A stretch of 64,000 nt of DNA, from the NCBI GenBank assembly GCA_016931955.1, contig JAFGDV010000035.1, forward strand, positions 6,215-70,214, given 5' to 3'. The DNA is from Candidatus Altarchaeota archaeon. Lineage in GTDB: Archaea > Altiarchaeota > Altiarchaeia > IMC4 > QMZM01. The notes under the pieces are model-generated. The model was given only the letters and a program-made list of their open reading frames with translations, was not told the origin of the DNA and did no database searches. The first letter of the stretch is position 1, and every line of letters begins with the position of its first letter. Shown piece after piece: positions 33,898 through 56,474 of this stretch. Position numbers and translations under genes: made by a program.

Positions 33898-34839
33898 ATG
33901 GAACTTCCTTGGACTGAAAAATACCGCCCCAAGAAGCTTGACGACATCGTCGGGCAGGACGCCATCGTTGACCGGTTGAAGGCTTATGTGAAGGAGAAAT
34001 CTCTTCCCCATCTGCTCTTCGCGGGTCCTGCTGGCTGCGGTAAGACTACTGCGGCTTTATGTATCACGAACGAGTTTTTCGGGGATGTTGCTGGAAACCT
34101 CTTGGAGTTGAACGCCTCAGATGAACGCGGGATTGACGTAGTCCGCGGCAAGATCAAGGATTTCGCGAGGACTAGGCCCATTACAGGCAGCTTCAAGATC
34201 ATCTTCTTGGACGAGGCCGACGCTCTCACGTCTGATGCGCAGAATGCCATGAGGCGGACGATGGAGAACTACACTCAAACCTGTAGGTTCATACTAAGCT
34301 GCAATTATTCCTCTAAGATCATCGAACCATTACAGTCTCGTTGTTCGTTGTTCCGGTTCAAGAGGGTGCCTAAGGACGCCATCAAGAAGAGGCTGGAAGC
34401 TATCCTGGATGCCGAGAAAATGAAATACACGGACGACGGAATAGATGCCATACTCTACGTTTCTGAAGGCGACATACGGCATGCCATCAACCTGTTGCAG
34501 TCTGCCGCAGCCCTCGGCAAGGTCGACGAAGACAGCGTCTACTCTATTGCTTCAAGGGCCAGGCCTGAAGACATCAAGACCTTGCTTGGGTTGGCGTTGC
34601 AGGGTAAGTTCCTTGACGCGAGGAATCTCTTGGATAGGATGCTGATGGTGTATGGCATGTCCGGTGAAGACATACTCTTACAGATGAATCGCGAAGCCAT
34701 GAACCTTGACGCCGAAGACGAGGTAAAGATGGGGGTCATAGACTTGGTCGGGGAGGCTAACTTCGCCCTCGTTGAAGGAGCCAATGAGAGAATACAACTC
34801 GAAGCATTGCTGGCAAGGATCATGAGACCGAAGAAGTAG
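33898..34839 (+). CDS. rfcS: Replication factor C small subunit
   Basis: A 313-residue clamp-loader ATPase that opens the PCNA ring. Walker A is GPAGCGKTT, Walker B is IIFLDEAD, and the arginine finger is in the SRC motif LQSRCSLFR. No intein. The length is typical. The 3' end overlaps the convergent nine-repeat membrane gene by 20 bases. The large subunit is not next to it. Confidence 0.96.
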   Translation: MELPWTEKYRPKKLDDIVGQDAIVDRLKAYVKEKSLPHLLFAGPAGCGKTTAALCITNEFFGDVAGNLLELNASDERGIDVVRGKIKDFARTRPITGSFKIIFLDEADALTSDAQNAMRRTMENYTQTCRFILSCNYSSKIIEPLQSRCSLFRFKRVPKDAIKKRLEAILDAEKMKYTDDGIDAILYVSEGDIRHAINLLQSAAALGKVDEDSVYSIASRARPEDIKTLLGLALQGKFLDARNLLDRMLMVYGMSGEDILLQMNREAMNLDAEDEVKMGVIDLVGEANFALVEGANERIQLEALLARIMRPKK

Positions 34840-37123
34840 CCATTTTTTTGCTTAACCGGTCCCCCAAGTAGATTAATGCCCCTCCTGGTATGAGATAACA
34901 GAAGGTTTCTATTAGCCAGTTCAGGTTCCCAGTATCCTGATATAGGAAGTTGTTGAGTCCGAATATGAAGGTCATAAGGGTTCCTATGATCAAGATGAAG
35001 CCGATAACGTATGCTGCCGTCGTTGTAACTGATTTCTTTTTTCCTTCGCGTTTTCTTATGCCGTCCACTACGAAGGTGAGTGCTGCAGCTGGCGCAATAA
35101 ACAGGAATAATTCAACAATCCAGAGAAGGTCTATCTCTTCATATGGTTTAAGGCTTGTGTGCACCCCCTGCACGTAGGTGATCAGCGACAGAAGCAGTAG
35201 TATGTAGATCACGGGAGTCAGGGCTAGTGGTAGGACAGATTTCTTCTGTTCCCCTATGACTGTCCTTTCGACTAAAAACAGGAATGCTACAGCAGGAACT
35301 AGGAAGAAGAAGGTCTCCAGCGTCCAGGTAAGGTCTGCATCATCCCATGGATAGAATAGTGTGCTGTGGGCGCCGAATGCATACACTAAAAGGGTTGAAA
35401 ACGCCAGAATAGAATACATCGGGGCGACGACATAGGGGGTAATGGATTTGCTCCATGATTTCTGGATTCTACCACAGTAGTAGAGGAAGACCGCTGCCGG
35501 TGCGACAAAAAGCACTACCTCGATCAGCCACATTATATCTGTTTCCCTCCAGGTGTCGTAGAGTGAGATGTGCACCCCAGAGAGGTAGACGAACACCGCA
35601 ACAAGCAGCAGTATGAATGATAATGGGATGAGCATGTACTGCCAAAGCTTTCTTCCAGATATGCGCTCATCTAGGTAGAGGAGTGACAGAAGGGGTATCC
35701 CGAATAATAGCACCTCAAGCGTCCATTTGAGGTCCGTTTTATCTGAATGGTAGAAGAACGTGCTATGCACTCCGATAAGGTAGGTTAACAGAGTGGCTAT
35801 CAGGAGGATCGCTGCAATAGGTTTCAGAAAATGGTGGATTACTGGCGCAGTAAAGCCCTCTTTTCCAGCTATCCTCTTGGCGGCTAAAAATAGAACGGCT
35901 GAAGGCAGCGCGTAGAGGAATACCTCCACCAGCCATGAAAGACTGATGTCGTCTAATAGTTCGTACATGGACATGTGGACTCCGAATACGTATGAGAACA
36001 CTGCAGCGATAGAGAGCAGAAACGACACTGGTGTCAGGATCTTGGGAAGCACTGGTTTTCTCGCTTCATTGACTCTTATCCTATCCAGCTTGATGAGCAT
36101 GAGGGCACATGGTATTCCCAAAAAAACGGACTCCCAAAACCATCTGAAGTCAGGTTCCCCCCCCAGAATGAAGAATGTGTTGTTCACGCCTGAGATATAA
36201 ACTATGAGAAAAGCTATCGATAATACAAGCGCTGAAGGCAGCAGTGCTCTGGGCATGCTCGACTTTTTTATCCCTTCAATCTCCTTTATCTTGTCTGCTT
36301 TCATGAGGAGGAGGATTGCAGGCAAACCAAAAACAAGGGACTCTATTATCCATGCCATATTCTGCCTATAATTGGTATAGTCTGAGGAATAGATCATGTT
36401 ATGCAGCCCGAATATGTAGACTATGAGAGTTACCAGGATAAGGACATAGGCGATGGGCTTCATGATTATTGGATATATGGATGTGCTTAAATCTTCTCGC
36501 CTTCTTAGTCTTTCAGTTAAGACTATGAGGGCGTAACCCAGGGAACTGAATATGACGGTTTCGATAATCCAACCATACTGTTGAGTGAATGAGGGTCTAA
36601 ACCAGACGTTACCGCCTGTATAGGTTAGCAGGTCATTGAATCCGAAGATGAATATGAAAAGGGCGAATACTGTGAAGATTGTGCCTGAGATAACAATCGT
36701 CAGCATCCTTATTGACTTCAAACTTTTCTGGATCTTGACCCAGACGTAGAGCAGCATCACTATACCCATGAGGTTAACGAAAAATCCGAAGTCGCCGAAG
36801 TCGAACGCCCTGTATATGTGGTATTCTCTCCCCAATAGAATCTCTGTGGGTCCGCCGCCTTTAGCTTGTAGGTATTCATCGTATTCTGGAGCCCGACCTG
36901 CGCTGAAGACTCCCATCTGCCACGTAGAGAGTCCAAAGATAAGAAAGATGGCTGCGAAGAGGACGATGATTGACAGTAAACCTGTTGTGATATCTGGTCT
37001 GCTTTCAGGTTCCTTTTCACCCAACTTTTCTCCTTCGGAAAACCGCCACGGACTCTTACCGCATTTATTGCACACGATGTCGTCTTTTTCAACGGGGGAG
37101 CCGCAGTTTACGCAGTAAGGCAT
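34820..37123 (-). CDS. Zinc-ribbon membrane protein with nine tandem two-helix repeats
   Basis: A 767-residue protein of no family I know. A zinc ribbon opens it (Cys4, 7, 18, 21: YCVNCG and VCNKCG). Two early helices (about 48-66 and 112-130) precede nine repeats of about 68 residues. Each repeat is a helix ending in G-hydrophobic-(H/N), a short loop, W-x-x-E and a second helix. The motif glycines are at 161, 239, 312, 381, 451, 516, 584, 653 and 722. The W-x-x-E pairs begin at 185, 258, 328, 397, 467, 532, 600, 668 and 736. About 20 helices in all. Function unknown; polar residues placed at helix ends could line a pore or bind a cofactor or ion. Confidence 0.82.
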   Translation of the reverse strand: MPYCVNCGSPVEKDDIVCNKCGKSPWRFSEGEKLGEKEPESRPDITTGLLSIIVLFAAIFLIFGLSTWQMGVFSAGRAPEYDEYLQAKGGGPTEILLGREYHIYRAFDFGDFGFFVNLMGIVMLLYVWVKIQKSLKSIRMLTIVISGTIFTVFALFIFIFGFNDLLTYTGGNVWFRPSFTQQYGWIIETVIFSSLGYALIVLTERLRRREDLSTSIYPIIMKPIAYVLILVTLIVYIFGLHNMIYSSDYTNYRQNMAWIIESLVFGLPAILLLMKADKIKEIEGIKKSSMPRALLPSALVLSIAFLIVYISGVNNTFFILGGEPDFRWFWESVFLGIPCALMLIKLDRIRVNEARKPVLPKILTPVSFLLSIAAVFSYVFGVHMSMYELLDDISLSWLVEVFLYALPSAVLFLAAKRIAGKEGFTAPVIHHFLKPIAAILLIATLLTYLIGVHSTFFYHSDKTDLKWTLEVLLFGIPLLSLLYLDERISGRKLWQYMLIPLSFILLLVAVFVYLSGVHISLYDTWRETDIMWLIEVVLFVAPAAVFLYYCGRIQKSWSKSITPYVVAPMYSILAFSTLLVYAFGAHSTLFYPWDDADLTWTLETFFFLVPAVAFLFLVERTVIGEQKKSVLPLALTPVIYILLLLSLITYVQGVHTSLKPYEEIDLLWIVELFLFIAPAAALTFVVDGIRKREGKKKSVTTTAAYVIGFILIIGTLMTFIFGLNNFLYQDTGNLNWLIETFCYLIPGGALIYLGDRLSKKMATSSVS

Positions 37124-55985: not shown

Positions 55986-56474
55986 CTAGGCTTCCTCTAC
56001 GTTGCCCCAGATCCACCCAGAACTGAGGTATTCCTCTCCGCTTCGGCTGTCAGTGTACTCTATAGAAACGAAGATGTTGTAGTGTCCGCCAGCAGCAATC
56101 TGAGGGAATCCTGCAGTAGCAGGTGAAGTCCATACCTTGGTCTCACCCGCTGCGAAGATGGCGCCTCCAGTAATATGGCTTTCTGGGGATGTGTCGGGAC
56201 ATGTTACGCCTTCAACGGTTGCGTTGATCTGTATGATGGTCACGTTCCCGCCGACTTTGTTGCTTATGGGGATCCTTAGCACTCCGTTGTCGGTGTATGA
56301 GAAGTCTTCGTAGGGTATGATTCCCCAGAAACCGGAGGATCCTGGCCTCACCTGGCCGGCTGGGTTGAAGACGCCCATCTGCCATAATAGGAGGGCGATG
56401 ACGGTTATAATTAGTATAGCCCAGCCATATGTCAGCAAAAACTCTAGCGCGACCTGGCCTCTACTGTCTTTCAT
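55986..56474 (-). CDS. Type IV pilin-like protein with class III signal peptide
   Basis: A 162-residue pilin. The short basic start MKDSRG is followed by QVALEFLLTYGWAILIITVI, the Q-x-x-x-E-F-L pattern cleaved by EppA-type class III signal peptidase before Gln7. After cleavage the hydrophobic helix assembles the fibre. The rest is a beta-rich globular domain. It would form adhesion pili. No pilus-assembly ATPase is adjacent. Confidence 0.85.
   Translation of the reverse strand: MKDSRGQVALEFLLTYGWAILIITVIALLLWQMGVFNPAGQVRPGSSGFWGIIPYEDFSYTDNGVLRIPISNKVGGNVTIIQINATVEGVTCPDTSPESHITGGAIFAAGETKVWTSPATAGFPQIAAGGHYNIFVSIEYTDSRSGEEYLSSGWIWGNVEEA

Follow-up and report, generated by a model that had tools for sequence, protein, structure and literature searches.

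What could an archaeal membrane protein be doing that is built of one short helix pair nine times over? The question is raised by a gene standing alone, between a convergent and a divergent neighbour, in the window, i.e. the whole stretch of 64,000 nucleotides analysed here (Table 1). Its product begins with a zinc ribbon, continues with a two-helix N-terminal module and ends with nine two-helix repeats, and helix prediction returns 20 helices, namely TM1, TM2 and two for each repeat. At its 3' end, the gene overlaps convergently with the 3' end of rfcS over 20 bases (34820-34839). As argued in the following, the features of this repeat protein speak for a membrane scaffold sooner than for a channel.

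Table 1. Features of the repeat-protein gene, its convergent neighbour and a pilin-like gene, with positions in the window.
Feature	Position	Strand	Remark
rfcS (replication factor C small subunit)	33898-34839	+	Convergent neighbour of the repeat-protein gene
Repeat-protein CDS, 767 aa	34820-37123	-	ATG start; 20 predicted transmembrane helices
Zinc ribbon, residues 1-26 (C4-x2-C7-x10-C18-x2-C21)	37046-37123	-	Pfam PF13248; predicted cytosolic
TM1, residues 45-67	36923-36991	-	Helix in model; 19-residue hydrophobic core
Conserved outer loop, residues 68-108, WQxGVF...GGPxxIxLGxxYHxYxxFDFGDF	36800-36922	-	41% invariant in four proteins
WQMGVF motif, W68-F73, outer end of TM1	36905-36922	-	Common to class-III-signal pilins
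TM2, residues 109-132	36728-36799	-	Helix prediction, hydrophobic core
Repeat 1, residues 133-208, GFN...WIIE	36500-36727	-	Divergent capping repeat, longer outer loop
Repeat 2, residues 209-281, GLH...WIIE	36281-36499	-	Among the best conserved between lineages
Repeat 3, residues 282-350, GVN...WFWE	36074-36280	-	Marks, leave-one-out profile
Repeat 4, residues 351-420, GVH...WLVE	35864-36073	-	Marks, leave-one-out profile
Repeat 5, residues 421-485, GVH...WTLE	35669-35863	-	Marks, leave-one-out profile
Repeat 6, residues 486-553, GVH...WLIE	35465-35668	-	Marks, leave-one-out profile
Repeat 7, residues 554-622, GAH...WTLE	35258-35464	-	Marks, leave-one-out profile, structure model
Repeat 8, residues 623-691, GVH...WIVE	35051-35257	-	Marks, leave-one-out profile, structure model
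Repeat 9, residues 692-761, GLN...WLIE	34841-35050	-	C-terminal cap; marks, leave-one-out profile, structure model
Class-III-signal (type IV) pilin-like gene, MKDSRGQVALEFLLTYGWAILIITVIALLLWQMGVFNP...	55986-56474	-	Carries the WQMGVF helix-end motif

It is statistically certain that the repeats of the 767-residue protein are beyond chance. As described in an earlier note on this DNA, all nine carry the same two marks, G-hydrophobic-(H or N) and then W-x-x-E, the glycine being found at residues 161, 239, 312, 381, 451, 516, 584, 653 and 722, i.e. at successive spacings of 78, 73, 69, 70, 65, 68, 69 and 69 residues; the regular recurrence claimed there holds, but the almost fixed period of about 68 is better given as a range of 65-78. 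Ordered pairs of G-x-(H/N) and WxxE numbered nine, whereas 10,000 local shuffles gave 0.06 on average and never more than 2. When each repeat was left out in turn and scored with the profile of the remaining eight, it exceeded the best of 2,000 composition-matched block shuffles in every case, with 51.8-70.6 bits for repeats 2 to 9 (shuffles at most 32) and 22.0 bits for the divergent repeat 1 (best shuffle 14.3). Over the window's protein and its three orthologues, which together hold 34 repeats aligned as 33 units (unit 5 of one orthologue spans two repeats), the Gly is found in 33/33 and the Trp and the Glu in 32/33 each, one orthologue repeat having lost the Glu and another the Trp. The third mark is His in 23 units, Asn in 8 and Asp in 2; considered by position, repeats 1 and 9 have Asn or Asp there, and repeat 3 has either Asn or His.

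The zinc ribbon recognized in the earlier note is likewise well founded, the four Cys (C4, C7, C18 and C21) being invariant across the four proteins and the sequence MPYCVNCGSPVEKDDIVCNKCGKSPW, i.e. CxxC-x10-CxxC, matching Pfam PF13248 with an E-value of 1.3e-5; its score was 24.9 bits against a cut-off of 27 in the Pfam search and 30.2 bits, over the cut-off, in the genome scan. A non-repeat helix pair (residues 45-132) with its conserved outer loop, which follows the ribbon and precedes repeat 1, had been overlooked. This pair was considered as a tenth, degenerate repeat and rejected as such, since its score with the profile of all 34 repeats was about 0-1 bits, a level also reached by roughly half of the shuffles. 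Inter-repeat linkers hold 3-6 Lys/Arg each against 0-2 per outer loop, from which, according to the positive-inside rule, we infer an orientation where the zinc ribbon and the linkers would be cytosolic and the GxH and WxxE marks would lie at the outer face.

Homologues with other repeat numbers, the search for which had been suggested in the earlier note, do exist. Three orthologues of 693, 776 and 696 aa, with 8, 9 and 8 repeats, were found in the genomes G002, G003 and G009, respectively, all belonging to the same GTDB family as the window's genome and assigned to Candidatus Altiarchaeales or Altiarchaeota; the copy number in the four proteins is then 9, 9, 8 and 8. The nine other genomes searched in this family, most of them 60-88% complete, gave no full-length match, and one contig scan relied on N-terminal peptide patterns, by which repeat-only relatives could be missed there. 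Across the four proteins, invariant positions amount to 41-46% in the zinc ribbon, the outer loop 68-108, TM2 and repeats 1 and 2, to 18-22% in repeats 3 to 6 and to 29% in repeats 8 and 9, the conserved head of the protein comprising the N-terminal module and repeats 1 and 2. In a tree of the 34 repeats, repeats 1, 2 and the last one group with their own orthologues, and the inner repeats do not correspond one to one between the two lineages, this tree being made from short sequences, without node-support values. Taken together, conservation and tree make the array look like two capping ends with a middle that turns over, and such turnover is typical of solenoid-like scaffolds. To judge from substitution rates, the repeat protein is under purifying selection (dN 0.17 and dS 1.29 between two congeneric orthologues, i.e. 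a dN/dS of about 0.13), which, along with the modelling of the repeats as equivalent hairpins (see below), agrees with selection on a repeated structural unit as initially put forward.

As for inheritance, the gene order at the orthologue locus L009 is hisD, HAD hydrolase, RNase Z, repeat-protein gene and PAC2, and in the window hisD, HAD hydrolase and RNase Z are found in the same order a few genes off; with this neighbourhood kept, the repeat-protein gene has probably been inherited vertically. In G002, the orthologue has RNase Z as its upstream neighbour; in G009, the genes directly upstream of it (L010, 61-1139) encode a V4R-domain-like protein and a KaiC-like ATPase. Both orthologues are directly followed by a PAC2-family gene on the other strand, these family names being assigned by reading the sequences.

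Structure prediction of the full-length protein by AlphaFold, with four sequences, was unreliable (pLDDT 50.6, pTM 0.34) and left out of the fold search; for this reason, three-repeat windows were aligned and modelled instead, using ten non-overlapping windows aligned in register. The model of repeats 7 to 9 (pLDDT 86.2, pTM 0.80) comprises six helices of 26-30 residues and, for the protein taken alone, this check proposed in the earlier note presents the three repeats as equivalent antiparallel hairpins, an equivalence partly built in as the repeats were aligned in register. Following the numbering of the model, Gly31 and His33 precede the end of the first helix by about one turn and Glu50 follows the start of the second by about as much, positions that would place them at about the same depth in the membrane. 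Comparison of the three-repeat model with the PDB by Foldseek brought no confident match, the best being ZnT1 (E 0.056, TM-score 0.29), by which a new fold is neither shown nor excluded; the best Z-score in VIA was 8.4, within the range common for helical bundles, and BFVD contained no match. Throughout the nine pairs, the cores of the repeat helices bear no conserved charged or strongly polar residue besides the outer-edge Glu and, considering all 20 helix cores of the window's protein, the only Asp or His is D485, at the inner end of one core.

The statement that no family has such a layout held for the libraries searched, i.e. Pfam, NCBIfam, PHROGs, PADLOC and the PDB, where no credible relative was found, nor in about 800 further genomes; phages, plasmids and viral contigs gave no match, and no description of the family was found in the literature. 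The profile-database search of the protein and of a single repeat, also advised at the outset, was run on Pfam and gave no significant match to any transporter family. With a single consensus repeat, the best Pfam match was FixS (E 0.017 over 28 residues); the matches to FixS and TMEM254 seen with the tripled consensus, with E-values down to 1e-6, were discarded as an artefact because the consensus copies are identical. HdeD/DUF308 and SPW are two-helix repeat families, and neither was among the Pfam matches listed, at E-values up to 1-5, for 24 single repeats, 10 triple repeats and the consensus, though a distant kinship could escape such lists. A holin in PHROGs (E 0.0035 over 32 residues) was dismissed as a generic hydrophobic match. 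Up to 394 archaeal genomes were searched with profiles of the whole protein, of one repeat and of three, and the repeat matches outside the family (E 4e-4 to 0.01, one per genome) were not taken as relatives. A Chloroflexota candidate (L077, E 1.2e-5) was rejected as well, the GxH and WxxE marks being absent, the score falling to about 23 bits after a 10-bit correction for composition bias and the single-repeat profile giving at most 5 bits to any part; a search of 400 further genomes around it, run without positive control, found nothing. Within the libraries searched, the repeat protein is new to curated families, solved structures and papers. In kind, it belongs with the tandem-repeat polytopic membrane proteins, its zinc-ribbon tip being a common one; in the array itself, the length, the regularity and the variation in repeat number are all out of the ordinary.

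Regarding function, the reading we prefer, if tentatively and with rather less than even confidence, is that of a lineage-specific integral membrane scaffold, i.e. a side-by-side array of equivalent transmembrane hairpins forming a membrane-embedded alpha/alpha repeat. The Glu opening each second helix would bond with the His/Asn/Asp and the Trp close to where the first helix ends, in the same or the next hairpin, and these bonds would lock the hairpins side by side; the array would set the size of the scaffold, and partners may be recruited by the zinc ribbon on the inner side and by the conserved loop on the outer side, no transport or enzymatic step being proposed. The His/Asn/Asp site accepts varied hydrogen-bonding residues where Gly, Trp and Glu are near invariant, which reads as packing; besides, the equivalence of repeats in the three-repeat model, the copy number of 8 or 9 and the purifying selection count for a scaffold. 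The apolar cores, the replaceable His and the poorly conserved inner repeats, which lack one-to-one counterparts between lineages, suit a modular scaffold more than they do a channel or carrier with many sites. Against a scaffold, it must be counted that the only conserved neighbourhood (hisD/HAD/RNase Z) is housekeeping and that a near-invariant acidic residue per repeat is also expected of a cation-binding array. Such an array, which we hold to be unlikely if still worth considering, would use the outer-face Glu, His/Asn/Asp and Trp as one site per repeat, the 8-9 sites storing, sensing or buffering a divalent metal, a polar lipid headgroup or a sugar, with the zinc ribbon as inner signalling tip. 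The near invariance of Glu and Trp and the presence of His, Asn or Asp in 33/33 aligned units at the same membrane edge, as well as the similar depth of Gly/His and Glu in the three-repeat model, are in keeping with it; however, that repeats 1, 3 and 9 have Asn where others have His, with Asp occurring as well, is unusual for a fixed ligand and argues against a fixed metal or haem ligand in particular, the losses of Glu and Trp mentioned above also count against it, and no known binding family was matched. The view of the conserved polar edge residues as part of a multi-site carrier or a binding array, expressed in the earlier note, suffers from these same replacements in three repeats, together with the varying copy number and the inner repeats being the least conserved. 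The channel or carrier also proposed there, which would have its pore between the hairpins, appears distinctly unlikely: some 20 transmembrane helices in 767 aa would suit it and ZnT/CDF proteins are among the top Foldseek rows, but at the weak values given above, and the residues of the CDF metal site are absent, no transporter family was significantly matched and the existence of both eight and nine copies is hard to square with a fixed pore. It is weakened further by the apolar helix cores, as is the pigment- or ion-binding array of the same proposal, and by the low conservation of the inner array.

A possible connection with pili was noticed post hoc, through a weak match of the N-terminal module. 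Where TM1 ends on the outer side, all four proteins have an invariant motif, WQxG(V/L)F (W68-F73). A scan of the four genomes for the DNA pattern of this motif gave 20 occurrences, and 2 when the pattern was reversed as a control. Of the 20, 14 belong to long reading frames and come immediately behind a hydrophobic segment, 10 of them in class-III-signal pilin-like proteins and 4 in the repeat protein, one per genome copy; the remaining 6 sit in short frames due to chance. In other words, following a membrane helix, the motif is found in these genomes only in the repeat protein and in class-III-signal pilins. Comparison of the profiles of pilins and repeat protein aligned 16 columns (P 4e-5), and the pilin profile run on the repeat protein gave 6.9 bits (E about 0.3 for 1000 sequences). 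The resemblance could mean that both are recognized through the same element, that a helix end was borrowed or that the sequences converged at the membrane edge. Were the protein associated with type IV pili, its TM1 would copy the pilin helix end and thereby meet the same assembly or holding machinery, or compete with pilins. The invariance of the motif, its excess over the control and its distribution between pilin-like and repeat proteins count for this association, which we nonetheless regard as very doubtful, given that the shared stretch covers only about 10 residues, that the score of the pilin profile is low, that a resemblance picked out after the fact may be due to membrane-edge convergence, and that the repeat protein has neither a class III signal peptide nor a pilin head nor an adjacent pilus gene. 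Apart from the pilin-like gene of Table 1, more pilin genes are present elsewhere in the window's genome. An unrelated exported protein of 498 aa in G009 (L084, frame from about 1165) contains FWQMGTFGGAPG, close to the pilin/TM1 motif and not located at a pilin-type helix end.

Carried to its full extent, the scaffold preferred here would be a true transmembrane alpha-solenoid, that is an open-ended stack of identical hairpins held by an outer-edge ladder of Glu-(His/Asn/Asp)-Trp, whose copy number varies between lineages without loss of function and whose pilin-like helix end ties it to surface filaments, all of which together is a distinctly improbable conjunction. Most large membrane proteins consist of one or two inverted repeats; it is rare for a single short hairpin to be extended into an array with freely varying copy number, and such an array would be a natural counterpart of the soluble alpha-solenoids. 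If confirmed, it would offer a clean system for how transmembrane hairpins duplicate and stay compatible, as well as a modular scaffold for membrane protein design, and the pilin link, if real, would tie an archaeal protein family of unassigned role to surface filaments.

Among known systems, the multi-pass proteins with Zn_ribbon_3 (PF13248) likewise carry a short N-terminal CxxC-x10-CxxC ribbon on a polytopic membrane protein, as exemplified in the same genomes by unrelated proteins of 328 aa with six helices and 345 aa with four; those inspected lack the repeat, and their membrane part has no detectable sequence relation to the repeat protein. The same type of N-terminal ribbon was met on unrelated multi-pass membrane proteins at L022, L035 and L038, in genomes of the same family, and its presence on several unrelated membrane proteins points to a module shuffled in these genomes. 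The CDF/ZnT zinc transporters, which provide the top Foldseek row, are six-helix bundles similar in size to the three-repeat model, matched with E 0.056, TM-score 0.29 and rmsd 10.8 (VIA Z below 7 over only about 60-70 residues); their intramembrane Asp/His metal site is absent from the repeat protein and Pfam gave no match to CDF/ZnT. As for the archaeal type IV pilins with class III signal encoded in these genomes, WQxG(V/L)F also closes their transmembrane helix at its outer end, whereas the repeat protein has 20 helices instead of one and possesses neither the class III signal peptide, (K/R)GQxxxE(Y/F), nor the pilin head. The alpha/alpha toroids and solenoids (designed 6xr2, tcTRP9), found among the Foldseek and VIA rows, are likewise stacks of helix hairpins of one unit; they are soluble and designed, whereas the hairpins of the repeat protein are transmembrane, and with a TM-score of about 0.3 and a Z-score of 6-7 the likeness is one of arrangement rather than a demonstrated shared fold.
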